From contig NZ_JAEHGE010000001.1 in the NCBI RefSeq assembly GCF_016097415.1, forward strand, positions 1,346,914 through 1,410,913: a stretch of DNA of 64,000 nucleotides, given 5' to 3'. The position numbers and the translations under genes were made by a program. This document shows positions 1-58,630 of the stretch, piece by piece (positions within the stretch are counted from its first letter, which is position 1; every line of letters starts with the position of its first letter). The stretch is from a sulfur-oxidizing endosymbiont of Gigantopelta aegis (GTDB taxonomy: Bacteria > Pseudomonadota > Gammaproteobacteria > GRL18). Under the pieces are notes generated by a model. It was not told the DNA's origin and made no database searches. It was given only the letters and a program-made list of their open reading frames with translations.

Positions 1-508
1 GTAAGCGCTTCATTTTCTTTCTCTCTATCCGTTTTAGGAGAGCTAACCCAATCATAATAGCAACTACGGGAAACATCCATAAAACGGCACAGAATCGTTA
101 CCGGGTAATCTTTAGCCTGATCAGTTATCCATGCGTACTTCACAAAGTTTCCCTTGCAAAGTACGCTGTGGCCTTTTTAATAAATCACGCTCCTGAATCA
201 CTTTTGCCAATTCTTTTTTCAGACGTTTTACTTCATCATAAATGTGTTCATCACTTCTATTGGCTACCGTCTTCACCGGTTTGGAATATTTACTGATCCA
301 GGTATGTAGAGTATTTACATTAACACCTAGCTCCCTGGCAGTCTGAGAAACGGGTTGATCCGTCTCATTAGCTAATTTGACAGCTGATTCTTTAAATTCT
401 GATGTATAGCTTTTATTCGGTTTTTTGTTTTTGATCATTCATTTTAGGTCACACTTTTTATCTTTTAGTTATTTTAAGTTGTGTGTCCGGTTAAGTGTAG
501 CCACATTA
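1..508 (-). mobile_element. IS3-family element copy A, cut by the window edge
   Basis: This is the 5' part of the IS3-family element found six times in the window. Its left terminus reads TAATGTGGC on the minus strand and lies at 501-508; the rest runs off the left edge. The full-length reference copy is F at 55951-57466. The IS end abuts a truncated CheW-like gene, so this insertion or a later deletion removed the 5' part of that gene. Confidence 0.9.
121..438 (-). CDS. IS3 transposase OrfA, copy A
   Basis: OrfA is the small helix-turn-helix protein of IS3 elements; it binds the IS ends and normally fuses to OrfB through -1 frameshifting. The HTH of the transposase_8 family covers about residues 10-55, followed by a leucine-zipper-like helix. 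The first codons differ from the other copies because of an indel in an A-run just after the usual ATG, so translation here would start at a shifted ATG. As in copies B, C and F, the A-run before the frameshift site has five A and the protein ends in an out-of-frame tail (…EVRMDN). Probably not functional alone. Confidence 0.75.
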   Translation of the reverse strand: MIKNKKPNKSYTSEFKESAVKLANETDQPVSQTARELGVNVNTLHTWISKYSKPVKTVANRSDEHIYDEVKRLKKELAKVIQERDLLKRPQRTLQGKLCEVRMDN

Positions 509-660
509 TTACCCTGAAAACGGATGAGGTGAAATGGCGTTCATCAAGAACTAAACGACGTTGGTTATTAGGTACGGTTATCGACCACATGTGTGCTTTA
601 TTGGACAGTGAAGAGTTTTCTGCGATGTTGAAAACAGGTGATGATAGTCTGCTAAGCTGA
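509..660 (+). pseudogene. CheW-like protein, C-terminal fragment
   Basis: An open frame without a start runs from the end of IS copy A (codons from 511) to TGA at 658-660. It contains WLLGTVIDHMCALLD. From memory, this resembles the C-terminus of the larger CheW-domain protein that precedes cheW in Pseudomonas-type chemotaxis clusters (…ParA, CheW-like, CheW, DUF2802). The family assignment is an inference from this motif and from the intact cheW that follows. The 5' part is absent, so the gene is broken. Confidence 0.6.
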
Positions 661-822
661 GATATTTATATGTAAGGCCTTCAAAAAATGACTTTCATAA
701 ACTAAACTTTCACTAAGATGTGCCGATAACAGATATATGAGCTCAAAAATGCTCTGTAACTAATATACACGTACTAATTTTTAGGCCCTGAGGCTATAAT
801 TTTTGAATTTTGAGGACTAATC

Positions 823-1305
823 ATGGAATATGATTACGATGATAATATGAATGTCGATCCATTGACACAATGGGTGACATTTATGTTGGAAGGTGAAAAA
901 TACGGCATTAATGTAATGCAGGTCAGGGAAGTATTACGTGATATTGAAATTGCCCCTGTGCCCGGAGCACCCAGTTATGTATTGGGTATTATCAACCTGC
1001 GTGGTAATGTAGTTACTGTGATTGACACCCGCTCTCGTTTTGGCTTATCAACCAGAGAAGCGAATGAAGAATCAAGAATTATTATTATTGAAAATAATGA
1101 GCAAACCCTAGGCTTGTTAGTTGACAGCATTGCTGAAGTGGCTGATATTCTTAAGTCTCAGATTGAAATTACCCCCAATGTCGGTAATGATGATAGTTCA
1201 AAATATATTCAAGGCGTTCATAGTCGTGATGGTGAGTTACTCATTTTAGTCTCAGTCGATAAGGTACTTAATGATGATGAATGGGCGGATATGGATATGT
1301 TTTAA
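823..1305 (+). CDS. cheW: Chemotaxis coupling protein CheW
   Basis: CheW is the cytoplasmic adaptor that links methyl-accepting chemoreceptors to the CheA kinase. The 160-residue protein is nearly all one CheW domain (about 14-150), with hallmark segments VMQVREVLR, PGAPSYVLGIINLRG and VVTVIDTR. The N-terminus is acidic and Asp/Asn-rich. A GAGGA ribosome site lies just before the ATG. It sits between a broken CheW-like gene and two small genes, the second broken, so it is the only intact recognisable member of this chemotaxis locus. No cheA, cheB or receptor gene is in the window. The family assignment is secure; whether the product still has partners is unknown. Confidence 0.93.
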   Translation: MEYDYDDNMNVDPLTQWVTFMLEGEKYGINVMQVREVLRDIEIAPVPGAPSYVLGIINLRGNVVTVIDTRSRFGLSTREANEESRIIIIENNEQTLGLLVDSIAEVADILKSQIEITPNVGNDDSSKYIQGVHSRDGELLILVSVDKVLNDDEWADMDMF

Positions 1306-1380
1306 TCTCAGCCTATAGCCAAGTATCATGGGTATATGAATAGCACTAGGCTGACAGTAATATGAGAAAGGAGGTTTATT

Positions 1381-1611
1381 ATGTCAGGCGATATTTTACC
1401 AATGAGTCCAGTAGGAGCAAGTCGTTTGGTTCAGGAAAAACGGCATTATCCGGGTCAACATAAAGAGCAACACTCAAAGCAATCGTCCAAGGATGATGAC
1501 GAGTCGTTAGAAAAAGGTATAGATGCTGATGCTCCCTTGAGTGCAGAGCAAAAGAGTGTGAATGCTAAAGAGAAAAATGTTAAGCTAGGCCATATTGACG
1601 AATATGCCTGA
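1381..1611 (+). CDS. Small hydrophilic protein after cheW
   Basis: A 76-residue, highly charged protein without membrane segments or cysteines. It has Lys/Asp/Glu/Ser-rich low-complexity sequence in the middle and ends in GHIDEYA. It is preceded by an excellent ribosome site (AAAGGAGG), which argues that it is real. I do not recognise a named family. I have a weak recollection of similar short proteins ending in HIDEYA between cheW and DUF2802 genes in gammaproteobacteria, which would fit this position. It is probably co-transcribed with cheW, 75 bp upstream. Function unknown. Confidence 0.6.
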   Translation: MSGDILPMSPVGASRLVQEKRHYPGQHKEQHSKQSSKDDDESLEKGIDADAPLSAEQKSVNAKEKNVKLGHIDEYA

Positions 1612-1631
1612 GCAGGACTAAATTTAACTTA

Positions 1632-1724
1632 ATGAATATGATTTTCATTCTTTGGGGTAGCATCAGCGCCTTATTATTACTTCTTATCTTTCTGGCTGTG
1701 TACGTTAATGGCTTGAGTAAGTGA
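1632..1724 (+). pseudogene. DUF2802-like membrane protein, N-terminal stub
   Basis: The ATG at 1632 opens a frame encoding one strongly hydrophobic N-terminal helix (Met-Asn-Met-Ile-Phe…) and then ends in a TGA supplied by the end of IS copy B at 1722. Position directly after cheW and a single N-terminal transmembrane helix match the DUF2802 protein of gammaproteobacterial chemotaxis loci. With only about 30 residues left, the identity is inferred from synteny. The remainder of the gene is not in the window. Confidence 0.5.
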
Positions 1725-1846
1725 TGTGTCAACACTTTTCCGGACAGTTTTCTAAATATTTTTTGGCTGTTTCAAGTGATTTTTGTCATTTTGTATTTCC
1801 TATCATTTTAGTTTCTCATGTTAACTTTAAATAGATGAAGATCGAT

Positions 1847-2548
1847 TTAAGCTATTTCCTGCTGTATTTCATAATCGACTGGTGACAAATAATCATTAGC
1901 CGAATGAAGTCGCTCCCGATTATAAAATACCTCAATATATTCAAATATTGCCTGCTTTGCTTCTACTCTGGTTTTGAATCGACAATGGTGCGTCAATTCA
2001 GTTTTCAAACTATGAAAGAAGCTCTCTGATACAGCATTGTCCCAGCAATTTCCTTTGCGGCTCATAGACTGAATTATGTTATGATCCGACAATATTTTTC
2101 TATGACTATCAGAGGCATATTGGCTACCTCGGTCAGTATGCCAAAGCAATCCATCCATTGGTTTACGCTTCCATATGGCCATCAGTAAAGCATCATTGAC
2201 TAGCTTGGCTTTCATTCGCTCATCCATCGACCAGCCAACAATTTGCCTAGAGAATAAGTCAATGACAACCGCTAAATATAACCAGCCTTCCTTGGTGGCA
2301 ATATAGGTAATATCACCCACATAGTAGCGATCAGGTTGAGAGACAGTAAACTCTCTTTCCAGTAAATTTGGAGATATACGCTTATTATGCTTGGAATTAG
2401 TCGTCGCTTTAAAGCGTCTCTTCGTTTTACAAAACAAACCGGCTTTTTTCATTAATCGACCAATTCTCCGGCGGCTTATATGAACGCCTTTTTCAGCCAG
2501 TTTTCTTTTTAAGACGACGGGTTCCATAAGTCTTGCGACTGTCTTCAA
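1847..2548 (-). pseudogene. IS3 transposase OrfB (DDE), copy B
   Basis: The rve/DDE integrase core is present, with motifs [20 protein letters not shown] and [11 protein letters not shown] supplying the three acidic residues. The frame opens at an internal Met. The 5' part of orfB is out of frame because of a two-base TC expansion near 2590 relative to copy F. The HTH_21 segment carries the same hidden double frameshift as copy F. Likely an inactive remnant. Confidence 0.8.
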
Positions 2549-2689
2549 ACAGTTTTTTAGCTGCTCAGTAAGCGCTTCATTTTCTTTCTCTCTCTATCCG
2601 TTTTAGGAGAGCTAACCCAATCATAATAGCAACTACGGGAAACATCCATAAAACGGCACAGAATCGTTACCGGGTAATCTTTAGCCTGA

Positions 2690-3010
2690 TCAGTTATCCA
2701 TGCGTACTTCACAAAGTTTCCCTTGCAAAGTACGCTGTGGCCTTTTTAATAAATCACGCTCCTGAATCACTTTTGCCAATTCTTTTTTCAGACGTTTTAC
2801 TTCATCATAAATGTGTTCATCACTTCTATTGGCTACCGTCTTCACCGGTTTGGAATATTTACTGATCCAGGTATGTAGAGTATTTACATTAACACCTAGC
2901 TCCCTGGCAGTCTGAGAAACGGGTTGATCCGTCTCATTAGCTAATTTGACAGCTGATTCTTTAAATTCTGATGTATAGCTTTTATTCGGTTTTTTTGTTT
3001 GATCATTCAT
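2690..3010 (-). CDS. IS3 transposase OrfA, copy B
   Basis: A 106-residue OrfA, identical in amino-acid sequence to those of copies C and F. The HTH of the transposase_8 type is at about residues 10-55. The usual ATG is used, with the IS-borne AAAAGTGTGACC leader upstream. The A-run before the frameshift site is A5 rather than the canonical A6, so the C-terminal tail is out of frame. Confidence 0.8.
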   Translation of the reverse strand: MNDQTKKPNKSYTSEFKESAVKLANETDQPVSQTARELGVNVNTLHTWISKYSKPVKTVANRSDEHIYDEVKRLKKELAKVIQERDLLKRPQRTLQGKLCEVRMDN

Positions 3011-3076
3011 TTTAGGTCACACTTTTTATCTTTTAGTTATTTTAAGTTGTGTGTCCGGTTAAGTATAGCCACATTA

Positions 3077-3575
3077 TCATTTTCTTTCTCTCTATCCGTT
3101 TTAGGAGAGCTAACCCAATCATAATAGCAACTACGGGAAACATCCATAAAACGGCACAGAATCGTTACCGGGTAATCTTTAGCCTGATCAGTTATCCATG
3201 CGTACTTCACAAAGTTTCCCTTGCAAAGTACGCTGTGGCCTTTTTAATAAATCACGCTCCTGAATCACTTTTGCCAATTCTTTTTTCAGACGTTTTACTT
3301 CATCATAAATGTGTTCATCACTTCTATTGGCTACCGTCTTCACCGGTTTGGAATATTTACTGATCCAGGTATGTAGAGTATTTACATTAACACCTAGCTC
3401 CCTGGCAGTCTGAGAAACGGGTTGATCCGTCTCATTAGCTAATTTGACAGCTGATTCTTTAAATTCTGATGTATAGCTTTTATTCGGTTTTTTTGTTTGA
3501 TCATTCATTTTAGGTCACACTTTTTATCTTTTAGTTATTTTAAGTTGTGTGTCCGGTTAAGTATAGCCACATTAT
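3077..3575 (-). mobile_element. IS3-family element copy C, 5' third only
   Basis: Starts abruptly inside orfB sequence immediately after the end of copy B and runs to an intact IS left terminus (CCACATTA, 3568-3575). Only orfA and its leader survive. The abrupt head-to-tail join with copy B suggests either insertion of B into C followed by deletion, or recombination between copies. A unique spacer of 41 bp (3576-3616) separates C from D. Confidence 0.88.
3188..3508 (-). CDS. IS3 transposase OrfA, copy C
   Basis: A 106-residue OrfA with the same amino-acid sequence as in copies B and F (HTH, then a leucine-zipper-like helix). Its orfB partner is missing, so it could at most act as a free OrfA, which in IS3 elements is a DNA-binding regulator of transposition. 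Confidence 0.8.
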   Translation of the reverse strand: MNDQTKKPNKSYTSEFKESAVKLANETDQPVSQTARELGVNVNTLHTWISKYSKPVKTVANRSDEHIYDEVKRLKKELAKVIQERDLLKRPQRTLQGKLCEVRMDN

Positions 3576-3616
3576 ATAGGTTTTATTTGTACCTTGTTGC
3601 TTCATATTCATACGTA

Positions 3617-4896
3617 TGATGTGTCAACACTTTTCCGGACAGTTTTCTAAATATTTTTTGGCTGTTTCAAGTGATTTTTGTCATTTTGTATTTCCTATCA
3701 TTTTAGTTTCTCATGTTAACTTTAAACAGATGAAGAGAAAGGGCTTTGCCCTCTGGAACGATAGAGCCGTTCCATTCACCCAAGGTATTTTCACAACGGT
3801 AATGATCCTGTTACAATATCTTCACGGCACAGGCTGAGGAGCCGATGGCCGTCAACGGTAATGGGCGGCATTTATGTCGCCTTTTACCCCTCTTCAATCA
3901 ATCGATTTAAGCTATTTCCTGCTGTATTTCATAATCGACTGGTGACAAATAATCATTAGCCGAATGAAGTCGCTCCCGATTATAAAATACCTCAATATAT
4001 TCAAATATTGCCTGCTTTGTTTCTACTCTGGTTTTGAATCGACAATGGTGCGTCAATTCAGTTTTCAAACTATGAAAGAAGCTCTCTGATACAGCATTGT
4101 CCCAGCAATTTCCTTTGCGGCTCATAGACTGAATTATGTTATGATCCGACAATATTTTTCTATGACTATCAGAGGCATATTGGCTACCTCGGTCAGTATG
4201 CCAAAGCAATCCATCCATTGGTTTACGCTTCCATATGGCCATCAGTAAAGCATCATTGACTAGCTTGGCTTTCATTCGCTCATCCATCGACCAGCCAACA
4301 ATTTGCCTAGAGAATAAGTCAATGACAACCGCTAAATATAACCAGCCTTCCTTGGTGGCAATATAGGTAATATCACCCACATAGTAGCGATCAGGTTGAG
4401 AGACAGTAAACTCTCTTTCCAGTAAATTTGGAGATATACGCTTATTATGCTTGGAATTAGTCGTCGCTTTAAAGCGTCTCTTCGTTTTACAAAACAAACC
4501 GGCTTTTTTCATTAATCGACCAATTCTCCGGCGGCTTATATGAACGCCTTTTTTCAGCCAGTTTTCTTTTTAAGACGACGGGTTCCATAAGTCTTGCGAC
4601 TGTCTTCAAACAGTTTTTTAGCTGCTCAGTAAGCGCTTCATTTTCTTTCTCTCTATCCGTTTTAGGAGAGCTAACCCAATCATAATAGCAACTACGGAAA
4701 CATCCATAAAACGGCACAGAATCGTTACCGGGTAATCTTTAGCCTGATCAGTTATCCATGCGTACTTCACAAAGTTTCCCTTGCAAAGTACGCTGTGGCC
4801 TTTTTTAATAAATCACGCTCCTGAATCACTTTTGCCAATTCCTTTTTATTTTTTAGTTATTTTAAGTTGTGTGTCCGGTTAAGTATAGCCACATTA
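3617..4896 (-). mobile_element. IS3-family element copy D, orfA deleted
   Basis: Both termini are present (TGATGTGTC at 3617; CCACATTA at 4889-4896), but the element is 1280 bp because most of orfA is deleted between the GCCAATTC region and the leader. The flanks (CGTA / AAAT) show no target duplication. It keeps the full 3' noncoding segment missing from copy B. It is the only copy with the six-A slippery run (GGCCTTTTTTAA near 4797-4810 on the plus strand). Confidence 0.9.
3907..4717 (-). pseudogene. IS3 transposase OrfB, copy D, frameshifted
   Basis: The DDE core is intact from residue 1 of the 3907-4512 frame. An extra T in a T-run near 4550 separates it from its 5' half (4487-4717), which encodes the [13 protein letters not shown] segment. 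A further one-base loss near 4696 breaks the start. There is no usable OrfA, so the element cannot move by itself. Confidence 0.85.
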
Positions 4897-5171
4897 AAAT
4901 GTTTTTTTTGCTGACTTAAAGAGGCCAAAATTCACAGTACCAAGCATATAAAAGGGAAATATTTTTTAACATGAAGTCATTCAACCAATTGAAAAACAAG
5001 AGTTTGATCTCTTGTTTCTCAAAATGCAAGCTTTTTATTTGATTTTTTTAATTTTGCTAAAGTTACTGCGAAAAGTTTTTTTATTTCTGCTTGGTAAGCA
5101 CCACTACAACTCAATTGTTCATCTCAGCGAGAATTGCTGATATTTAAATGAGGGAATTTAGTGTTTATAAA
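4897..5171. other. No gene seen; likely remnant of a further integron cassette
   Basis: AT-rich sequence with no credible open frame on either strand, between IS copy D and the first attC-like site. It contains a short inverted repeat around ACAAGAGTTTGATCTCTTGT (about 5000). Its right edge (ACTTAAC, 5172-5178) is the cassette boundary of attC1, so in the integron reading this is the start of the next cassette, truncated by IS copy D. Confidence 0.5.
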
Positions 5172-5283
5172 ACTTAACGCCTAGTTCACCAGACCGAAAA
5201 GTTTCGTGGCTTTTGTGGCATTATAGCGAAGCGCCACAAAAGGTGCGTAACTTTTTGGGTCTGCGTGCAACTTTTTGTTAGGC
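5172..5283 (-). repeat. attC-like recombination site 1
   Basis: 112 bp. On the minus strand it begins GCCTAACAA (R'' box RYYYAAC) and ends GGCGTTAAGT (R' box GTTRRRY). This polarity matches known attC sites, which start TAACAA and end GGCGTTA. Inner arms (GTTGCACGCAGACC… / …GGTCTGGTGAAC) give an imperfect palindrome. It is almost identical to attC2 and follows the stop of the TfoX-N gene, as a cassette attC should. Confidence 0.75.
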
Positions 5284-5325
5284 ATATTATTTATTTTACT
5301 TAAGCTGCTTATTAAAATTGCACTT

Positions 5326-5658
5326 TTATTTATAACTATAGGCTGAGTCAATTGCTTCTTTTGCCCACTCAACTAATTTCTCTTGATTTTCAAACAGATC
5401 TTCTGGAGCAGAATAATATTTTTTAACTTTAACGATGCCTTTTTTATTGGAATATGAGAAAGGTTCCATATCTTCTTTTTCATATTTTTTTCTAGTTATA
5501 TCATTAACGCAAAAATATAAAGTATTACCCATAATCATAGCAAATTGTTTGTTTCCACTTTTAAAAGCAAAGCCACCAAAAAACATACCTTCTTTAAGCT
5601 TGCCTAAAGGTTCGAATAGTTCTTTAACATATTCTATAAATTCCGGACTTGCACTCAT
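5326..5658 (-). CDS. TfoX N-terminal domain protein (integron cassette gene)
   Basis: A 110-residue protein matching the TfoX/Sxy N-terminal domain: EPLGKLKEGMFFGGFAFKSG near the N-terminus, then MIMGNTLYFCVND and the PFSYSNKKG segment. In full-length TfoX/Sxy this domain belongs to a natural-competence and CRP-dependent regulator; stand-alone versions are common and their role is not established. Signature, length and one-domain layout fit the family. The gene lies exactly between two near-identical attC-like sites in the orientation expected for a mobile gene cassette, with its start 14 bp inside the boundary of attC2. Its codon use is AT-richer than that of the housekeeping genes here, consistent with lateral acquisition. 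Confidence 0.85.
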   Translation of the reverse strand: MSASPEFIEYVKELFEPLGKLKEGMFFGGFAFKSGNKQFAMIMGNTLYFCVNDITRKKYEKEDMEPFSYSNKKGIVKVKKYYSAPEDLFENQEKLVEWAKEAIDSAYSYK

Positions 5659-5671
5659 TTATTTTCCTTGT

Positions 5672-5783
5672 GCCTAACGCCTAGTTCACCAGACCGAAAA
5701 GTTTCGTGCCTTTTGTGGCATTATAGCGAAGCGCCTCAAAAGGTGCGTAACTTTTTGGGTCTGCGTGCAACTTTTTGTTAGGC
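5672..5783 (-). repeat. attC-like recombination site 2
   Basis: 112 bp, nearly identical to attC1 (two internal differences plus the boundary box). On the minus strand R'' is GCCTAAC at 5783-5777 and R' is GTTAGGC at 5678-5672. It begins 3 bp after the stop of the MerR gene. Such near-identity between neighbouring attC sites is typical of chromosomal integron arrays. Confidence 0.78.
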
Positions 5784-5785
5784 AT

Positions 5786-8611: not shown

Positions 8612-9650
8612 CTCAGCATAAAGCTACAAATAAAAGTCCACTAACAAAAAGTTAATCATTATGTCCCTTATTTTTTCTTCACAACCCGGTGCCCGGGAAC
8701 GACATCTTAAACGCCAGTACCAAAATGTACTTTTTCCTCAAGCACAAAGAGAGTTTAATGAACAACGACTTTCGGGGGCGCGCTATATGGATGAAAAAGA
8801 GCAAGAGGAATTCTTGCAGACATTTCATTCCTTGCTTGAACAGGTCGCTGAACTCAAGGCCAATGAAGGCAGTGAGTTGATGCTGGAACTGAAGTCACAA
8901 CTCGATCAAAATTATGAACTCTGCAGTGGTTTAATGGGGGAGCATCAAAGTGAAAAAGATGCCATCATTAAATTAGTCGCTGTTATTATGGCTTCCATCA
9001 AGCAAAGTGCTGCGGGCGATCCTGAAGCTGAGCATAATTTGCAAGAGGAAGAGTTAGCAAGGAATACTCATTTTCAATTGTTACAGTGTAAGCGCTTAAC
9101 GAACAGCGTTCTTTACCTTTTCCAATTCTGATTTTTTAAAATTCCAGGGAAGCAATGCTTCCAGCTTTTCAACCGTATCCGCATAAGGTAATTGGGTTAA
9201 TACATAGACCATATACGCATATGGCTCAATATCATTGGCCTTAGCGGTTTCAATAAAACTATAATGAACTGCACTGGCATGTGCACCCTTTGGCGTATCT
9301 GAAAATAACCAGGCCTTTCTACCCACGCAGAATGGACGGATAGCATTTTCTGCCAGCACATTACTGATATTCAACCGACCATCTTCACAATAAACAGTCA
9401 GCTTAGGCCATTGATTATTAATATAGGTGAGTGCTTTTCCTGTCAAGCTGTCGTTCGGCACTTTGCCCAGGGTGTTATCGACCCATGTTCTTATTTTCTC
9501 AAGAAGCGGCAGGCTCTGTTTCTGACGAACCTTAAATTTTTCATTAACACTGGCTTCTTTTATCTCACGCTCAATTAAATACAGCTTATTGATATGGGCC
9601 AGTGCCACATCGGCTTTTGTAGGCTTTTGATTGCTCTTTTTCTTTGGTTG

Positions 9651-11162
9651 TAATGTGGCTATACTTAACCGGACACACAACTTAAAATAACTAAAAGATA
9701 AAAAGTGTGACCTAAAATGAATGATCAAACAAAAAAACCGAATAAAAGCTATACATCAGAATTTAAAGAATCAGCTGTCAAATTAGCTAATGAGACGGAT
9801 CAACCCGTTTCTCAGACTGCCAGGGAGCTAGGTGTTAATGTAAATACTCTACATACCTGGATCAGTAAATATTCCAAACCGGTGAAGACGGTAGCCAATA
9901 GAAGTGATGAACACATTTATGATGAAGTAAAACGTCTGAAAAAGAATTGGCAAAAGTGATTCAGGAGCGTGATTTATTAAAAGGCCACAGCGTACTTTGC
10001 AAGGGAAACTTTGTGAAGTACGCATGGATAACTGATCAGGCTAAAGATTACCCGGTAACGATTCTGTGCCGTTTTATGGATGTTTCCGTAGTTGCTATTA
10101 TGATTGGGTTAGCTCTCCTAAAACGGATAGAGAGAAAGAAAATGAAGCGCTTACTGAGCAGCTAAAAAACTGTTTGAAGACAGTCGCAAGACTTATGGAA
10201 CCCGTCGTCTTAAAAGAAAACTGGCTGAAAAAGGCGTTCATATAAGCCGCCGGAGAATTGGTCGATTAATGAAAAAAGCCGGTTTGTTTTGTAAAACGAA
10301 GAGACGCTTTAAAGCGACGACTAATTCCAAGCATAATAAGCGTATATCTCCAAATTTACTGGAAAGAGAGTTTACTGTCTCTCAACCTGATCGCTACTAT
10401 GTGGGTGATATTACCTATATTGCCACCAAGGAAGGCTGGTTATATTTAGCGGTTGTCATTGACTTATTCTCTAGGCAAATTGTTGGCTGGTCGATGGATG
10501 AGCGAATGAAAGCCAAGCTAGTCAATGATGCTTTACTGATGGCCATATGGAAGCGTAAACCAATGGATGGATTGCTTTGGCATACTGACCGAGGTAGCCA
10601 ATATGCCTCTGATAGTCATAGAAAAATATTGTCGGATCATAACATAATTCAGTCTATGAGCCGCAAAGGAAATTGCTGGGACAATGCTGTATCAGAGAGC
10701 TTCTTTCATAGTTTGAAAACTGAATTGACGCACCATTGTCGATTCAAAACCAGAGTAGAAGCAAAGCAGGCAATATTTGAATATATTGAGGTATTTTATA
10801 ATCGGGAGCGACTTCATTCGGCTAATGATTATTTGTCACCAGTCGATTATGAAATACAGCAGGAAATAGCTTAAATCGATTGATTGAAGAGGGTAAAGGC
10901 GACATAAATGCCGCCCATTACCGTTGACGGCCATCGGCTCCTCAGCCTGTGCCGTGAAGATATTGTAACAGGATCATTACCGTTGTGAAAATACCTTGGG
11001 TGAATGGAACGGCTCTATCGTTCCAGAGGGCAAAGCCCTTTCTCTTCATCTGTTTAAAGTTAACATGAGAAACTAAAATGATAGGAAATACAAAATGACA
11101 AAAATCACTTGAAACAGCCAAAAAATATTTAGAAAACTGTCCGGAAAAGTGTTGACACATCA
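9651..11162 (+). mobile_element. IS3-family element copy E nested in IS66 tnpC
   Basis: 1512 bp from TAATGTGGC (9651) to GACACATCA (11162), flanked by a perfect 4-bp duplication GTTG (9647-9650 and 11163-11166). This fixes the true ends of the IS3 element: terminal inverted repeats TAATGTGGCTATACTTAACC and TGATGTGTCAACACTTTTCC, each followed by GGACA. The insertion is younger than the IS66 insertion that carries it. Confidence 0.95.
9717..10874 (+). pseudogene. IS3 transposase OrfA/OrfB, copy E, three or more frameshifts
   Basis: OrfA reads from 9717 but shifts at an A-run near 9943 (AAAAAG where F has AAAAAAG). The slippery run is only A4. A lost C near 10086 and a lost A near 10212 break the start of orfB. 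The DDE core is intact in 10269-10874 ([25 protein letters not shown]). All differences from copy F lie in homopolymers. Confidence 0.88.
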
Positions 11163-12202
11163 GTTGTGCCGTCTGAGAATCTTTGAATTTACGGCGAGTG
11201 TGATCCCAGCAGCCGACCGATGTGGCATTATTTTGTGCACACACGGCATTGTAACCGGCATAGCCATCGGTTTGCAGATAGCCGCTAAAGCCATCAAGCA
11301 GGCGCAGTGGTACTTCCTTCTTACGAGAAGGATCGTATTCAAACAGCACACTGGGTTGTCCAGGTGGCCCGCCACGACTGACCCACATGTATTTGTTCGA
11401 ATGAGCACTGAGTCCCGGCTCTTTTAATACTTTGAGCACCGTTTCATCCATTTGGATGATGTCACCCGACAGTTGATGTTCTCGCATGAGGTTGATGAGC
11501 GGCTGGAACTGATGAGCCAGTTTAATAGCCCAATTGGCCATGGTGGCTCGGGTTATATCGCCGCCATAGCGTGATAATATGCCTTCCATTCGATACAGAG
11601 GCAAACCATCGGCATATTTTGAGATAATGATGTGTGCCATCAGGTGAATACTGCCCATTGATTTAGGTAATGGATGTTTTGGCATGACCGCAGCTTTCAT
11701 TGAACGACTGTCTGTGTCATTGGTGCCTGCAAAGACGGCTTTTTCCTGGAAGTATTCCAGTATTTGGACTTTAGCTGGAATGATATCCAGCTCTTCTCTG
11801 ACTTTAGTGTAAAAACCTCAATGGCACCGGCTTTTTCTTCATCTGTCAGATCGATGAAGACAGGGACTCTTGGAATAGTCTTTGAGAAAGGCTTCCTGCC
11901 TGTTTTTCTTTCTTCTTAGGCGAAGTGGTTTTAGGTTCAGGGAGCCCTCATCGTCAGCCGCCTGCTCAGCTTCATCAAATAAGCGTTCCTGACCATCACT
12001 TTTTCACTGCTGGGTGCAAAGCGTTTACTACGAGCCAGACGAAGGGCTTCTTCCAGTATTTTTATACGGTGGTTTTTCTGTTCAATGACACTCAACAATT
12101 CATTCTTGTCCGCGTGTGAAAAAGCGGAAAATATAGAGTCGTTTTTGTGGATTCAGCCTTGTTTTGCATGGCTTTATTATAACAAAAATAGACTAAAAGT
12201 AC

Positions 12203-13963: not shown

Positions 13964-14041
13964 GTAGGATGTGGTGAGGAACGAACCGCATCAATGACAA
14001 TTAGATGCCTTTGATGCGGTTCGTTCCTCACCACATCCTAC
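13964..14041. repeat. Perfect 31-bp inverted repeat (GTAGGATGTGGTG family)
   Basis: Arms at 13964-13994 and 14011-14041 are exact reverse complements, with a 16-bp loop. It sits between the 3' end of metH and the DsbA-like gene, so the RNA could fold as a very strong hairpin after metH. Single arms of the same family occur at 36777-36807 (identical) and 62652-62682 (two differences). Confidence 0.9.
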
Positions 14042-35338: not shown

Positions 35339-35812
35339 ATGTGTAAAAATATAAAATCAATAAACCTGCTGTTAGATAATTGCTCTTACAAAAAAAATAT
35401 CATGATTTTTCTCGTTGCAATGGCAGCGGTGATGTTTTCAACCGCAGCATTGTCAGTGCAATCACTGCGTGGCGGTTATCCTTTGGAGTCTGATACTGAA
35501 AGTGTACCCAAACATAAGGTGAACACAGAAGAAGGTGGTTATGATCGTAATTTTAAATTGCAACCCCCTATGATTCCACATAAAACAGCTAAATATCGTA
35601 TTAATTTAAAAAATAATGGTTGTTTAAAATGTCATAGTGAAAAAAGTTATAAAAAAGAGAATGCACCAAAGGTGGGTGATAGTCATTATATTGACCGTGA
35701 CGGTAAAACTCTGAAAACTATTTCTAAACGTCGTTATTTCTGTACTCAGTGTCATGCACCACAGGTTAAGAGTAAGCCTCTCGTTAAAAATACCTATGAA
35801 GGTATTGATTAG
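35339..35812 (+). CDS. napB: Diheme cytochrome NapB
   Basis: A 157-residue small subunit of the Nap reductase that donates electrons to NapA. A signal helix lies at about 20-38 (IMIFLVAMAAVMFSTAALS), and the two heme sites are CLKCH and CTQCH; distal His residues lie in MIPHK and GDSHYID. GGAG sits 9 bp before the ATG at 35339, giving a slightly long N-terminus; a Met at residue 22 is the alternative. A MITE-like repeat follows before napC. Confidence 0.94.
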   Translation: MCKNIKSINLLLDNCSYKKNIMIFLVAMAAVMFSTAALSVQSLRGGYPLESDTESVPKHKVNTEEGGYDRNFKLQPPMIPHKTAKYRINLKNNGCLKCHSEKSYKKENAPKVGDSHYIDRDGKTLKTISKRRYFCTQCHAPQVKSKPLVKNTYEGID

Positions 35813-35840
35813 TCTTGCTAAAAAACACGCAGCACACTTA

Positions 35841-36020
35841 AACCTAAAAAAAATCAGTTGAACCTACTGCGACCGCCTTATGCACTGAATCTTAAGGGTT
35901 TTCCAGAACATTTTGACTTCACCCGTAGGGTGACTACGAATAAAGCCAAAATAACCTGTAAACCCCTTAATCTTCATCACCTAAGTCGCTCTCGCTACGA
36001 TTCAACTGAGGTTTCTAGGT
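35841..36020. repeat. MITE-like palindromic element copy 1, between napB and napC
   Basis: 180 bp from ACCTAAAA to TAGGT, flanked by TAA on both sides (35838-35840 and 36021-36023). Long imperfect inverted arms: ACCTAAAAAAAATCAGTTGA against its counterpart at the other end, with CACCCGTAGGGTG near the centre. Copies 2 (41645-41822) and 3 (58376-58553) are highly similar. No transposase is encoded; the apparent reading frames in it are not conserved genes. Confidence 0.85.
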
Positions 36021-36163
36021 TAAAATATCCATATAATTACTATGTGTATATTCTAATGATCTAATGGGTGGTGTATACTGCACCCATTCGATGACTAGCC
36101 AGCGTGAATTGGCTAAAATTGATTGACTAGATTTTATTAAAAAAGAAAGTGGGATTAAGAATA

Positions 36164-36730
36164 ATGGGATTATTTTCAAAAGAAGGTACGTTTAAAGTAC
36201 TGTTTTTTGGCTTCGTCATGGGTATTATTTTCTGGGGCGGCTTTAATACCGCCATGGAAGCAACCAATCAGGAATCATTTTGTATTTCCTGTCACGAAAT
36301 GGAAAACAATGTGTATCAGGAATACACAGAAACCATTCACTATTCAAACCGTACGGGTGTGAGAGCAACTTGTCCTGATTGTCACGTACCTAAAGAATGG
36401 ATACATAAAATTATTCGTAAAATTCAGGCTTCTAATGAAATTTATCACAAGTTATTAGGCACGATTGATACCCGCGAAAAATTTGAAGCAGAACGTCTTA
36501 ATTTAGCTACCCATGAATGGGCACGTATGTTAAGTACCGATTCGCGTGAGTGTCGTAACTGCCATGACTTTGACTCCATGGACTTTGATAAGCAAGAGTC
36601 TCGTAGTGCCAATCGCCATGAAGAAGCAATCGATAATGGCTGGACTTGTATCGAGTGTCACAAAGGTATTGCTCATGAGCTACCTGCTGGCTATGATCCT
36701 GCTGATGATACGCCAGGAGGCGATCAATAA
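36164..36730 (+). CDS. napC: Tetraheme cytochrome NapC
   Basis: A 188-residue membrane-anchored quinol dehydrogenase of the NapC/NirT family. One N-terminal helix (about 9-31) and four heme sites CISCH, CPDCH, CRNCH and CIECH. It passes electrons from quinol to NapB. I use the ATG at 36164 (MGLFSKEG) over an in-frame GTG at 36149. A 350-bp interval containing MITE copy 1 separates it from napB, so its expression may be partly uncoupled from the rest of the operon. Confidence 0.94.
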
Positions 36731-36776: not shown

Positions 36777-36807
36777 GTAGGATGTGGTGAGGAACGAACC
36801 GCATCAA
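36777..36807. repeat. Single arm of the GTAGGATGTGGTG repeat
   Basis: 31 bp identical to the left arm of the palindrome at 13964-14041. It lies between napC and the terminator; no partner arm is nearby. Confidence 0.85.
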
Positions 36808-41484: not shown

Positions 41485-41644
41485 TAAAAGATTGTTTTAT
41501 TTGTTTTTCTGTCATAATCCTAAACAAATTACTATCTGAAACAATTTGTAACAATTTATTGAGTGTAGAGAAATGATTGTGCAATTGGGATGGTTTATTA
41601 TAGGTTTGGACTGCGCTAATATTAGTGATGACTATGATATATAA

Positions 41645-41822
41645 CCCTAAAAAAATCAGTTGAACCTACTGCGACCGCCTTATGCACTGAATCTTAAGGA
41701 TTTTACAGAACATTTTGACTTCACCCGTAGGGTGACTACGAATAAAGCCAAAATAACCTGTAAAACCCTTAATCTTCAGCACCTAAGTCGCTCTCGCTAC
41801 GATTCAACTGATTATTTTAGGA
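41645..41822. repeat. MITE-like palindromic element copy 2, leader of the RND operon
   Basis: 178 bp, ends CCCTAAAA and TTTTAGGA, flanked by TAA (41642-41644 and 41823-41825). Its end is 16 bp before the ATG of the RND adaptor gene, so the palindrome forms part of that operon's 5' untranslated region or supplies its promoter. Of the 426-bp gap 41412-41838, the rest holds the FNR-type box and no gene. Confidence 0.85.
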
Positions 41823-41838
41823 TAACAGAACTGAGAAA

Positions 41839-43269
41839 ATGACAAAAATACTACAAAAAGCCTTTATTTTACCGTTGATTGTTTTTCTTGCCCTTGCTGT
41901 GGTGGTTTATAAGGTAAAAACCCAAGCACCTATTGCGCATGAACGATTAAGTTTTCCCATAAAATCGGTTGATGTGATTACGCTTAAAAAACTACCTTTT
42001 CGTAATAGAGCCATTGCCTATGGCCATGTTGAACCGGCTATTGTGTTAAATGCTAAAACAGAAGTGAGCGGTAAGATCAGTTATATCCATCCTTTTCTAA
42101 AAAAAGGGGCGAGTTTACCTAAAAATACGATTGTATTGAAAATAGAGCCAACGGCTTTTGAGTTTTCATTGGATCAGAGCAAAGCGGGGCTGAGTAGTAG
42201 TCAGCATTCTTTGACACAATTGGAAGTTGAAGAAAAAAGCACCCGCCGTTTGCTGGAAATTGCTCAGGAAAACCTACGTATTGGCAAACAGGAATTGGCC
42301 CGCTTACAAAGTATTTTAAAGCGTGGCCTAGTGGCACGCTCCAGTATTGATGAAGAGCAGCAGAAAGTGTTGCAATTGAGTCAGCAGGTAGCAGATTTAC
42401 AGGGAAGATTAGACAGTTATGCCAGTCGAAAGTCATCGACAGAGGCACAAATCAAGCAATCAAAGACACAATTGGCACAAAGCGAGGACACCTTAGGGCG
42501 TACCGAGATACGGCTGCCCTTTGATGCGCGTATCGGTACGGTAGCGGTGGAAAAAGGGGAATATATTAGTACGGGCAATGTGTTATTTGAGGCCTTGGGA
42601 ACGGAGTCCGTGGAAATTAATGCCCAATTGCCGGTGAGTCAATTCTATCCACTGATAAAAGGTTTTGAAGACCACCCCCTTAATTTAAAGCAAGTGAGTA
42701 ATTTACAAGCTGAATTTTTAAAAATAAAATTACAGACCATTGTGCGTCTGGTGGGCTATGAAGACTTTGATGCGGTATGGAAAGGACAATTGTTGCGCAT
42801 AGGTGAGGCAATTGATCCGCAACGGGATACTATCAGTTTAGTCGTTGCAGTCAACAAACCTTATGACAATGTAATTCCCGGCGTTCGTCCACCATTATTA
42901 AAAGGCATGTATGCGGAAGTGGAATTTTTTACTCCGGTGAGAGACTTATTAGTGATCCCCCGTAAAGCCCTTCATCAAGGGCGCATTTATGTGGCGAATG
43001 AGGATAACAAATTAGAAATTAGAGCAGTGAATGTGTTACAAAAACGGGGGGATTTATTAATTATTGAATCGCTGCCTGAGCAAGCTGTGCAAGTAGGTGA
43101 GCGCATTATTATTAGTGATGTCGTGCCGGTGATTGAAGGCTTGCCACTCAAGCCTATTCATGTCACGGAATTTGAGCAACAATTGGCAAAGAATGCCCTG
43201 AGTGAAGAATTGCTCCAGGTGAAATTTTCAGATAAGCCAGTAGAGATGGGTGAAGGTGTTCAGCCATGA
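41839..43269 (+). CDS. RND efflux periplasmic adaptor (membrane fusion protein)
   Basis: A 476-residue HlyD/AcrA-type adaptor with an N-terminal anchor helix (about 9-28), a lipoyl half-motif (AKTEVSGKISYIHPFLKKGA), a long coiled-coil hairpin (about 105-215, Gln/Ser/Leu-rich), a second lipoyl half (TEIRLPFDARIGTVAVEKGEYI), a beta barrel and a membrane-proximal domain. It links the RND pump to an outer-membrane channel. Its end overlaps the pump gene by 4 bp (ATGA). No TolC-like gene follows. Confidence 0.92.
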   Translation: MTKILQKAFILPLIVFLALAVVVYKVKTQAPIAHERLSFPIKSVDVITLKKLPFRNRAIAYGHVEPAIVLNAKTEVSGKISYIHPFLKKGASLPKNTIVLKIEPTAFEFSLDQSKAGLSSSQHSLTQLEVEEKSTRRLLEIAQENLRIGKQELARLQSILKRGLVARSSIDEEQQKVLQLSQQVADLQGRLDSYASRKSSTEAQIKQSKTQLAQSEDTLGRTEIRLPFDARIGTVAVEKGEYISTGNVLFEALGTESVEINAQLPVSQFYPLIKGFEDHPLNLKQVSNLQAEFLKIKLQTIVRLVGYEDFDAVWKGQLLRIGEAIDPQRDTISLVVAVNKPYDNVIPGVRPPLLKGMYAEVEFFTPVRDLLVIPRKALHQGRIYVANEDNKLEIRAVNVLQKRGDLLIIESLPEQAVQVGERIIISDVVPVIEGLPLKPIHVTEFEQQLAKNALSEELLQVKFSDKPVEMGEGVQP

Positions 43270-55941: not shown

Positions 55942-56016
55942 ATATTTTATTAATGTGGCTATACTTAACCGGACACACAACTTAAAATAACTAAAAGATA
56001 AAAAGTGTGACCTAAA

Positions 56017-56337
56017 ATGAATGATCAAACAAAAAAACCGAATAAAAGCTATACATCAGAATTTAAAGAATCAGCTGTCAAATTAGCTAATGAGACGGAT
56101 CAACCCGTTTCTCAGACTGCCAGGGAGCTAGGTGTTAATGTAAATACTCTACATACCTGGATCAGTAAATATTCCAAACCGGTGAAGACGGTAGCCAATA
56201 GAAGTGATGAACACATTTATGATGAAGTAAAACGTCTGAAAAAAGAATTGGCAAAAGTGATTCAGGAGCGTGATTTATTAAAAAGGCCACAGCGTACTTT
56301 GCAAGGGAAACTTTGTGAAGTACGCATGGATAACTGA
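56017..56337 (+). CDS. IS3 transposase OrfA, copy F
   Basis: A 106-residue HTH protein ([20 protein letters not shown], then [20 protein letters not shown]) with a leucine-zipper-like helix ending [10 protein letters not shown]. In the six-A version seen in copy D the end would read [15 protein letters not shown], the ordinary IS3 pattern. So the last 20 residues here are a frameshift product. Confidence 0.88.
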
Positions 56338-57175
56338 TCAGGCTAAAGATTACCCGGTAATTCTGTGCCGTTTTATGGATGTTTCCCGTAGTTGCTATTA
56401 TGATTGGGTTAGCTCTCCTAAAACGGATAGAGAGAAAGAAAATGAAGCGCTTACTGAGCAGCTAAAAAACTGTTTGAAGACAGTCGCAAGACTTATGGAA
56501 CCCGTCGTCTTAAAAAGAAAACTGGCTGAAAAAGGCGTTCATATAAGCCGCCGGAGAATTGGTCGATTAATGAAAAAAGCCGGTTTGTTTTGTAAAACGA
56601 AGAGACGCTTTAAAGCGACGACTAATTCCAAGCATAATAAGCGTATATCTCCAAATTTACTGGAAAGAGAGTTTACTGTCTCTCAACCTGATCGCTACTA
56701 TGTGGGTGATATTACCTATATTGCCACCAAGGAAGGCTGGTTATATTTAGCGGTTGTCATTGACTTATTCTCTAGGCAAATTGTTGGCTGGTCGATGGAT
56801 GAGCGAATGAAAGCCAAGCTAGTCAATGATGCTTTACTGATGGCCATATGGAAGCGTAAACCAATGGATGGATTGCTTTGGCATACTGACCGAGGTAGCC
56901 AATATGCCTCTGATAGTCATAGAAAAATATTGTCGGATCATAACATAATTCAGTCTATGAGCCGCAAAGGAAATTGCTGGGACAATGCTGTATCAGAGAG
57001 CTTCTTTCATAGTTTGAAAACTGAATTGACGCACCATTGTCGATTCAAAACCAGAGTAGAAGCAAAGCAGGCAATATTTGAATATATTGAGGTATTTTAT
57101 AATCGGGAGCGACTTCATTCGGCTAATGATTATTTGTCACCAGTCGATTATGAAATACAGCAGGAAATAGCTTAA
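56315..57175 (+). CDS. IS3 transposase OrfB (DDE), copy F
   Basis: A 286-residue catalytic protein of the rve/DDE type: HTH_21 region at about 35-95, core with [31 protein letters not shown] and [15 protein letters not shown] (D, D, E). It opens with GTG inside the end of orfA. Residues about 58-78 ([20 protein letters not shown]) are out of frame: the +1 reading gives [16 protein letters not shown], the conserved family motif, so two compensating indels lie on either side. Activity is doubtful. Confidence 0.85.
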
Positions 57176-57521
57176 ATCGATTGATTGAAGAGGGGTAAAG
57201 GCGACATAAATGCCGCCCATTACCGTTGACGGCCATCGGCTCCTCAGCCTGTGCCGTGAAGATATTGTAACAGGATCATTACCGTTGTGAAAATACCTTG
57301 GGTGAATGGAACGGCTCTATCGTTCCAGAGGGCAAAAGCCCTTTCTCTTCATCTGTTTAAAGTTAACATGAGAAACTAAAATGATAGGAAATACAAAATG
57401 ACAAAAATCACTTGAAACAGCCAAAAAAATATTTAGAAAACTGTCCGGAAAAGTGTTGACACATCATTATTGATAAAAGGGATGATAAATGACAAGGTGT
57501 TCAATATAATAATTTGCTAGC

Positions 57522-58394
57522 ATGATTTCTATTAAATTATATAGGAGTTTTGCTGTGTTTATACAAAAAAGAGAAACATCTTTGTTTTTATTTGCATTGC
57601 TTGTTTTTTTTATCAGTTTCCCCCCGGTAGTTTTCTCTCAATCCCCTCCACCTGCTAAAATCATTGTCAGTGTTGAGCCGCTTTATGAAATTGTCGCAAC
57701 GCTCTCCCATGGCATTAATAAGCCTGAAGTAATCTATAGCAATTTTAATGAACGGCAAACCCCGCTTTCTAATCGGCAAAAATCATTACTTGCTCATGCC
57801 GATATTATTATCCGTGTGGGAAAGGGCCTTGAACCCTATTTAGATGAGTATATAAAGCAACAGGGTAGAGTGCTGGAAAATAAAACCATTACCTTATCAC
57901 AGTATATTCCACTGCTAGATAAAGAGGCTGTTTCGTCAGATGTACTTGCTGTTAATCGTCAGGAAAAAAGTGATCTACGTTTCTGGATGGATCCGCGCCT
58001 AGTCAAAATGCTGGCTATTTACATTGCACCCAAATTGGCTGTTATGGATCCCGATCACCAAGAACAATATCTGGACAATGAAATTGTTTTAAAAGCACAA
58101 TTGAAAAAAATTGAAAAAAAGATGCTACAGCTTTTTAATCAATTATCGATGGAACAAAAATCATTATTTGCTCAATTTAATCCGTATTTAAAAAATCGTT
58201 ATATGCATTTTTCTGAAATACAGCGATTACCTTCTCATAAGAAAAACAGTATTGAATCGTGTATTAATAATCACTCCTTTAAAGTCATTCCACTCAATTT
58301 GGACTATACTGAGAAATCATTATATGCCTTGTTACAGACTTTAGAATTATGCAGTCAGTCTAAGGTGGCAGTTAAACCTAAAAAAATCAGTTGA
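57522..58394 (+). CDS. ZnuA/TroA-like metal-binding protein, degenerate, 3' end in a MITE
   Basis: A 290-residue exported protein of the ZnuA/TroA substrate-binding family: signal helix about 20-40 (cleavage near VFSQS), then KIIVSVEPLYEIVATLSHG, HADIIIRVGKGLEPYLDEYI and WMDPRLVKMLAIYIAPKLA. Two usual metal-ligand His sites are missing: the first loop reads SNFNERQTPLS where a PHxxxxxPS pattern is expected, and DPHxWLDP has become DLRFWMDP. The last six residues and stop come from MITE copy 3, so the original C-terminus is changed. No znuB or znuC is nearby. Probably a non-canonical or decaying binding protein. Confidence 0.78.
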   Translation: MISIKLYRSFAVFIQKRETSLFLFALLVFFISFPPVVFSQSPPPAKIIVSVEPLYEIVATLSHGINKPEVIYSNFNERQTPLSNRQKSLLAHADIIIRVGKGLEPYLDEYIKQQGRVLENKTITLSQYIPLLDKEAVSSDVLAVNRQEKSDLRFWMDPRLVKMLAIYIAPKLAVMDPDHQEQYLDNEIVLKAQLKKIEKKMLQLFNQLSMEQKSLFAQFNPYLKNRYMHFSEIQRLPSHKKNSIESCINNHSFKVIPLNLDYTEKSLYALLQTLELCSQSKVAVKPKKIS

Positions 58395-58553
58395 ACCTAT
58401 AGCGACCGCCTTATGCACTGAATCTTAAGGATTTTCCAGAACATTTTGACTTCACCCGTAGGGTGACTACGAATAAAGCCAAAATAACCTGTAAAACCCT
58501 TAATCTTCAGCACCTAAGTCGCTCTCGCTACGATTCAACTGATTATTTTAGGT
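58376..58553. repeat. MITE-like palindromic element copy 3, at the end of the ZnuA-like gene
   Basis: 178 bp, ACCTAAAA to TTTTAGGT, flanked by TAA (58373-58375 and 58554-58556). Its first bases supply the last codons and the TGA of the ZnuA-like gene. A short direct repeat (ACTAAAACCTTGTAAGT, twice in 58569-58605) follows it. Confidence 0.87.
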
Positions 58554-58630
58554 TAAAGATTTGTAAGTAACTAAAACCTTGTAAGTGACTAAAACCTTGT
58601 AAGTAATAAGTGAGCGAGTAAAGAAGAAAG

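Follow-up and report, generated by a model that had tools for sequence, protein, structure and literature searches.

A Short Palindromic MITE between napB and napC of a Sulfur-oxidizing Endosymbiont, with 5-bp Target Duplications and a Probable IS1380-type Helper

The Locus and the Three Copies in the Window

The window analyzed here is a stretch of 64,000 nucleotides from the genome of a sulfur-oxidizing endosymbiont of Gigantopelta aegis, and its features are collected in Table 1. The focal MITE (copy 1) starts 31 bp past the end of the napB stop codon and leaves both nap reading frames intact; the napC start given in the table is a predicted one, inferred from a GGGATTA-like motif found just before the start in aligned relatives. 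All three copies in the window start with CCTAAAA and finish with TTTTAGG (copy 1: TTTCTAGG), and copies 1 and 2 are 93% and 97% identical, respectively, to copy 3, which served as the reference. An earlier note on this DNA had described three palindromic copies with inverted ends. We found them with limits shifted by 1–2 bases, and each copy is 69–74% identical to its own reverse complement, while shuffled sequences gave a mean of 56–57% and a maximum of 66%. Folding was strong relative to shuffled sequences both for copy 2 as single-stranded DNA (z = -9.85) and for copy 1 as RNA (z = -5.36).

No ORF of at least 80 aa overlaps copies 1 or 2, and the ORF upstream of copy 3 extends into this copy. 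As the note had stated, no transposase is encoded, since copies of 176–177 bp are too short for one. The ZnuA-like ORF ends in ...VAVKPKKIS with copy 3 in place and in ...VAVKDL when the flanks are joined (58372-58557). A search of the whole window with Rfam at the gathering threshold gave tRNA only.

Table 1. Positions of the MITE copies, their target duplications and neighbouring features in the window
Feature	Position	Strand	Remarks
napB	35339..35812	+	Upstream neighbour of copy 1; Pfam NapB, E 1.8e-43
Copy 1, left target duplication	35838..35842	.	TTAAA
MITE copy 1 (focal)	35843..36019	+	177 bp, between napB and napC; subfamily A body, subfamily B right tip
Copy 1, right target duplication	36020..36024	.	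TTAAA
Gap hairpin	36059..36092	+	Common to relatives, independent of the MITE; covariation
napC	36164..36730	+	Downstream neighbour of copy 1, start predicted; Pfam Cytochrom_NNT, E 4.3e-77 (ORF scored from 36149)
Copy 2, left target duplication	41641..41645	.	ATAAC
MITE copy 2	41646..41821	+	176 bp, 17 bp upstream of the ATG of the HlyD-type ORF
Copy 2, right target duplication	41822-41826	.	ATAAC
HlyD-type ORF	41839-43269		Behind copy 2; Pfam HlyD_3 25.4 bits, cut-off 22.2
ZnuA-like ORF	57522-58394		At copy 3; stop codon now within the MITE
Copy 3, left target duplication	58372..58376	.	TTAAA
MITE copy 3	58377..58552	+	176 bp, at the 3' end of the ZnuA-like ORF
Copy 3, right target duplication	58553-58557	.	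TTAAA

Copy Number and Subfamilies in the Genome

A pattern for the centre of the element matched 70 times in the 4.91-Mb genome and its reversed control not once, so the MITE is not a chance pattern. The 19-bp left-end pattern gave 91 + 104 matches (control 20 + 17) and the right-end pattern 94 + 85 (control 2 + 4), counts in which every full copy scores twice. Among the 138 candidate places of the first search, the 40 that were scored are 97–100% identical to copy 3. Very short forms are also present, namely four of 37 bp, two of 55 bp and, in the second subfamily (B), forms of 52 and 67 bp; exact duplications flank two of the four 37-bp forms, and we infer that such forms arose as internal deletions between short repeats.

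The ends have the form CCTA...TAGG, with a terminal stretch of about 16 bp, CCTAAAAWAATCAGTT, in the common subfamily (A). The ends of the second subfamily, CCTAGAAACCTCAGTT, have 15 exact matches in the genome, one of them belonging to the focal copy, and three more with one mismatch; matching 5-bp flanks were found in all four members that were read with both ends. The focal copy is a chimera of a common-subfamily body and a second-subfamily right tip, which points either to one transposase able to use both kinds of end or to a tip exchange that followed insertion. Among elements read with both ends, three variable bases are mostly equal at the two ends (AAT in this family; GAG, CCT and CAT in others), and are unequal in the focal copy, in the IS copies of its own genome described below and in L163.

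Two longer pairs of ends were considered as autonomous partners and rejected. The 4.18-kb pair (L091) is a MITE split by insertions, with an ISL3-type transposase piece and, by reading of its ORFs, an IS21-type insert, and the 2.08-kb pair (L092) is a MITE split by an IS66-type transposase insert; in both cases parts of the MITE lie at the two sides.

Target Site and Position Relative to Genes

Duplication length was determined for 46 copies with complete CCT...AGG ends, selected by a stricter pattern from loci L001-L113, which had been fetched as best matches. A looser pattern applied to the same loci gave 65 rows, among them very small and truncated forms, fragments matching by chance, and three copies listed once per strand. 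With 4 differing bases in its right tip, the focal copy falls outside the stricter set, and its duplication was read separately. An exact 5-bp duplication flanks 41 of the 46 copies across the genome (L012, L017, L019, L022 and L026 have none), against a mean of 8.0 and a maximum of 15 in 500 shuffles of the flank pairing. No copy gave a match of 3, 4, 7 or 8 bp, one gave 6 bp, and 11 gave flank matches of 2 bp alone (shuffled mean 3.65).

The consensus of the target is W-T-N-A-W: the second base is T and the fourth A in every one of the 41 exact duplications, and the first and fifth are A or T in all but one of them. When the strands are collapsed, the types are TTAAA (22), ATAAT (9), TTCAA (6), ATAAA (3) and ATAAC (1). 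TAA stands beside all three copies in the window because each of their 5-bp duplications has it at the centre; six of the 41 (TTCAA/TTGAA) lack it on both strands.

By a simple ORF rule, 13 of the 46 copies lie within an ORF of at least 100 aa, 32 are intergenic and one was left unclassed, whereas such ORFs contain 313 of 400 W-T-N-A-W sites drawn at random from the window. Among the 13, eleven are at most 61 bp from the 3' end of the ORF and two at most 35 bp from the 5' end. Such avoidance of gene interiors is what is expected if harmful insertions are lost. A preference for stop codons was also considered and dropped: the duplication overlaps the stop of an ORF of at least 100 aa in six of the 46 copies, as compared with 44 of 655 non-interior W-T-N-A-W sites of the window, which is not significant (one-sided binomial P = 0.086).

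The nap Locus in Relatives

We collected 24 napB loci and read 23 of them for napC (our genome and 22 relatives), the remaining one, L190, being searched for MITE ends only. Two relatives have no napC in reach. In none of the 20 relatives with both genes does the MITE lie between them, although the napC matches are weak in some of these pairs (33–39% identity in L212 and L213), and no MITE ends occur in the nap loci of 23 relatives. Insertion within the nap cluster, as the earlier note had it, is thus borne out by a gap that is free of the MITE in 20 of 20 paired relatives.

The gap could be aligned for 15 relatives of the family, five (L191, L192, L210, L212 and L213) being omitted as too different. 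The single TAA that the note expected at the site in related strains is present in 12 of the 15, as TAAA in nine and as TAA in three, some of these being the stop codon of napB itself; G004, G006 and G010 have no TAA in register, and the exact TTAAA occurs in none of the 15. The match of the empty site is only approximate because these relatives are other species.

Downstream of the insertion site, the gap carries a hairpin of its own with 13 pairs, seven of which have changes on both sides among the 14 sequences used. Paired cells amount to 93.4%, the covariation score was reached by none of 500 shuffles and slid versions scored far lower, in a test on 14 of the 16 aligned rows (G002 and G023 omitted), which were also the source of the structure. 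The loop has TGTATAAT-like bases, and a T run follows the hairpin in some relatives, on account of which it may be a terminator or a processing site. Since the gap of the relatives already has this covarying hairpin, a hairpin at this place is not itself new, and copy 1 is an extra one in a gap already holding one; an effect of copy 1 on napC expression is possible but unproven. Promoter-like sites in 35700-36300 number 4 against 1.5 expected, none within copy 1. Other hairpin-like stretches, unlike the MITE by eye, were seen in the napB–napC gap at L204 and L209 (in G015 and G004, respectively).

IS1380-type Elements as Candidate Helper

A search of the genome with PF13701 gave three matches, two of which are IS1380-type copies; the third, below the cut-off, was not counted. 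The two copies, L111 (1684 bp, flanked by ATAAA on both sides) and L112 (1680 bp, flanked by TTAAA on both sides), have unlike ends, CCTATAAAAATCAGTT and CCTAAAAACCGCAGTA, which are equal at 11 of 16 bases, and the CCTATAAAAATCAGTT end agrees with the left end of the MITE at 15 of 16 bases. Their reading frames are both broken, and the 11-contig assembly yielded no intact transposase of IS1380 type. Two ORFs of the same strand, L112:203-721 and 2410-2916, stand on either side of L112 and resemble halves of a REP-associated Y1 transposase gene; Pfam Y1_Tnp scores weakly in one of them (20.7 bits, cut-off 23) and not at all in the other.

The related IS copies, found in the genus and in the family, are 1680–1710 bp (1.68–1.71 kb) long. 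One end of a copy in G020 and of two copies in G002 is CCTAAAAAAATCAGTT, which agrees with the start of the MITE at 16 of 16 bases. An intact transposase frame of 522 aa is present in G009, a member of the same genus, and scores 69 bits for Pfam DDE_Tnp_1_4 (PF13701; cut-off 34.7); its best NCBIfam model, transpos_IS1380 (NF033539), gives 122.7 bits, below the cut-off of 180. The proposed assignment of the helper to the IS1380 family is based on the Pfam score. G004 has a frame with a stop, and G002 has many fragments (49 matches). Exact 5-bp duplications flank five of the eight IS copies read with both ends, one of the five being on a Polaromonas plasmid, and are missing from L163, L167 and L169; their sequences (TTAAA, ATAAA, TTAAT and TTTAA; TTAAA in Polaromonas) are of the same target type as those of the MITE.

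Beyond the terminal 19–23 bp, no significant similarity between MITE and IS was found (best matches E 3.7e-5 to 0.08, at the ends), so the MITE is not a simple deletion derivative of the IS. Plasmid relatives of the helper transposase, at 23–28% identity, are annotated as IS1380 family. The Polaromonas plasmid CP087967.1 has, 357 bp away from its IS1380-like element with TTAAA duplications, another element of 234 bp whose ends match; as the latter has no target duplication, the support it gives is weak.

Distribution among Genomes

The MITE was found in at least 24 of the 144 genomes searched, a count in which at most five candidates per genome were scored and absence is not firm. The carriers are this genome, 13 of 15 others of its genus and 7 of 8 others of its family (20 of 23 other family members in total), together with 3 of 120 genomes outside the family, one at 77% identity and two weak. 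PF13701 matches occur in 45 of 278 genomes, our own included, 32 of them over the cut-off; within the family they occur in only 6 of 24 genomes (own included), though the MITE is present in 21 of 24. Public genomes, scanned for an exact pattern, contributed 16 stretches, with BP5.bin83, Ga0074134 and SW_26 among the MAGs that contain them; most of these stretches have ends of the form CCTAAAAANNNCAGTTGG. The viral_contigs set gave no exact end-pattern match and the plasmid set no MITE match, both being sets that may lack entries from this genome or from ones close to it.

Interpretation and Alternatives

We consider it very probable that this MITE is non-autonomous, with ends recognized in trans by a DDE transposase of the IS1380 family. 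Such a transposase would bind the ends of about 16 bp (CCTAAAAWAATCAGTT, or CCTAGAAACCTCAGTT in the second subfamily) and cut a W-T-N-A-W site with a stagger of 5 bp, which would leave exact 5-bp duplications. Copy 1 would have landed in this way behind napB, where it would add a hairpin of 177 nt to the napB–napC transcript. The attribution of the MITE to IS1380, as judged from ends and duplications at the sequence level, appears well supported.

The earlier note had read the element as consistent with a TA-type target, with a constant TAA flank, and had named the Tc1/mariner, IS630 and IS200 types as those in which to look for its transposase. A MITE of the Tc1/mariner or IS630 group has a 2-bp TA duplication, and IS200/IS605 derivatives have neither inverted ends nor target duplications. 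The TAA flanks, on which this reading draws, do stand at both sides of all three copies in the window; over the genome they are not constant, as six of the 41 exact duplications lack TAA. The duplication is of 5 bp in 41 of 46 copies and never of 3 bp, which weighs against the reading unless the 46 copies are unrepresentative, and a TA-duplicating family does not fit a 5-bp W-T-N-A-W duplication. No 2-bp TA duplication of the Tc1/mariner or IS630 kind characterizes these copies, and inverted ends together with 5-bp duplications do not agree with IS200/IS605. As the autonomous elements with matching CCTA...TAGG ends are of IS1380 type, a TA-type origin is scarcely credible and the helpers proposed in the note give way to IS1380. 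MITEs flanked by TAA, we would caution, need not be TA-type. A different 5-bp-duplicating transposase, for instance of the Tn3 or IS1634 family, with similar ends by chance is unlikely as well. The assembly's lack of an intact IS1380 helper speaks for it, as does the fact that, in the accessible part of the source, Tn3-type TIMEs give AT-rich duplications of 5 or 6 bp (PMC4133298). The same source, however, gives TIME ends of 38 bp, and the inverted repeats of Tn2/Tn3 start with GGGG in the part consulted of PMC7864471, so that the MITE, with ends starting CCTA, does not conform to the Tn3-type TIME pattern of 38-bp ends starting GGGG; moreover, up to 16 of 16 end bases are identical to those of IS1380-type elements making W-T-N-A-W duplications.

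It might also be proposed that copy 1 has been kept for its hairpin, which would process or attenuate the nap transcript, and so has been co-opted for tuning napC; its place before napC in a gene cluster and its strong RNA fold noted above are in accordance with this. This we hold to be improbable: among the relatives compared, copy 1 is in this genome only (0 of 20), the gap already has a hairpin, terminator-like sites in 35700-36300 number 0 against 0.5 expected, and the avoidance of gene interiors by the copies overall is explained by purifying selection alone. The element provides an insertion marker across the family, one for which the target is well defined and a helper can be proposed.

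Comparison with Known Systems

According to the accessible parts of the cited papers, ISEcp1, a member of the IS1380 family (PMC2887853), has the left inverted repeat CCTAGATTCTACGT and 5-bp repeats (PMC7864471), chromosomal units of ISEcp1 in E. coli have AT-rich duplications of 5 bp at their sides (PMC9325909), and IS1247 of the same family is 1672 bp long with 5-bp repeats (PMC3281130). The elements studied here resemble these two in the CCTA start (that of the left repeat of ISEcp1), the 5-bp duplications, the similar size of the related IS and the DDE_Tnp_1_4 transposase; they differ in that the MITE has no gene and that the transposase of the related IS falls under the NCBIfam IS1380 cut-off. 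The W-T-N-A-W target of the MITE is also stricter than the ISEcp1 sites TCATA, TGGGT, GATAA and ATTTC given in the consulted part of PMC7864471.

In being short and non-coding, with inverted ends and many copies, the MITE is like the Correia elements (CREE), the TIMEs and the type II MITEs of Anabaena sp. 90, as far as the excerpts available describe them (PMC9330008, PMC4133298 and PMC3542288, respectively). According to the same excerpts, the commonest duplication of Correia elements is TA (PMC9330008), in contrast to W-T-N-A-W; TIMEs have Tn3-type ends (PMC4133298), whereas those of the MITE are of IS1380 type; and the Anabaena elements, unlike the MITE, have no evident matching IS (PMC3542288). 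The consulted parts of accessible papers on IS1380 and MITEs, most subscription papers lying outside the search, describe no IS1380-type MITE, and the pairing may therefore be undescribed so far.

A further likeness is to piggyBac, whose end CCCTAGAAAGATAGTC stands next to TTAA in the oligonucleotides of PMC7351741 and for whose trees IS1380 has served as the outgroup (PMC10813416), both papers being known to us in part. The elements here include ends CCTAGAAA beside TTNAA, and the likeness is one of end letters and target; the duplication is the 4-bp TTAA in piggyBac, whereas it is of 5 bp in the MITE. We regard it as rather unlikely that the MITE and its related IS1380-type elements form, at the level of their DNA, a bacterial counterpart to piggyBac (CCTAGAAA with a TTNAA-like target versus CCCTAGAAAG with TTAA). 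Within this group, the variable triplet after CCTARAAA (AAT, CCT, CCG, CGG or GAG) would mark subfamilies of ends. A single transposase may nonetheless combine ends of different subfamilies, to which both the chimeric focal copy and the unlike IS ends in its own genome point. Such a counterpart would bear on the origin of the target choice of piggyBac.

Other Repeats in the Window

Near-identical copies or fragments of an apparent IS3-type element with two transposase ORFs, its family assigned by reading, occupy 1-5785, 9646-11165 and 55948-57466. Repeats of GTAGGATGTGGTGAGGAACGAACCGCATC lie at 36777-36805 and 13964-14041, with 64 + 61 matches in the genome and none for the reversed control. 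Some of them, among the matches listed, form inverted pairs about 52 bp apart, and the repeats resemble REP/REPIN repeats.
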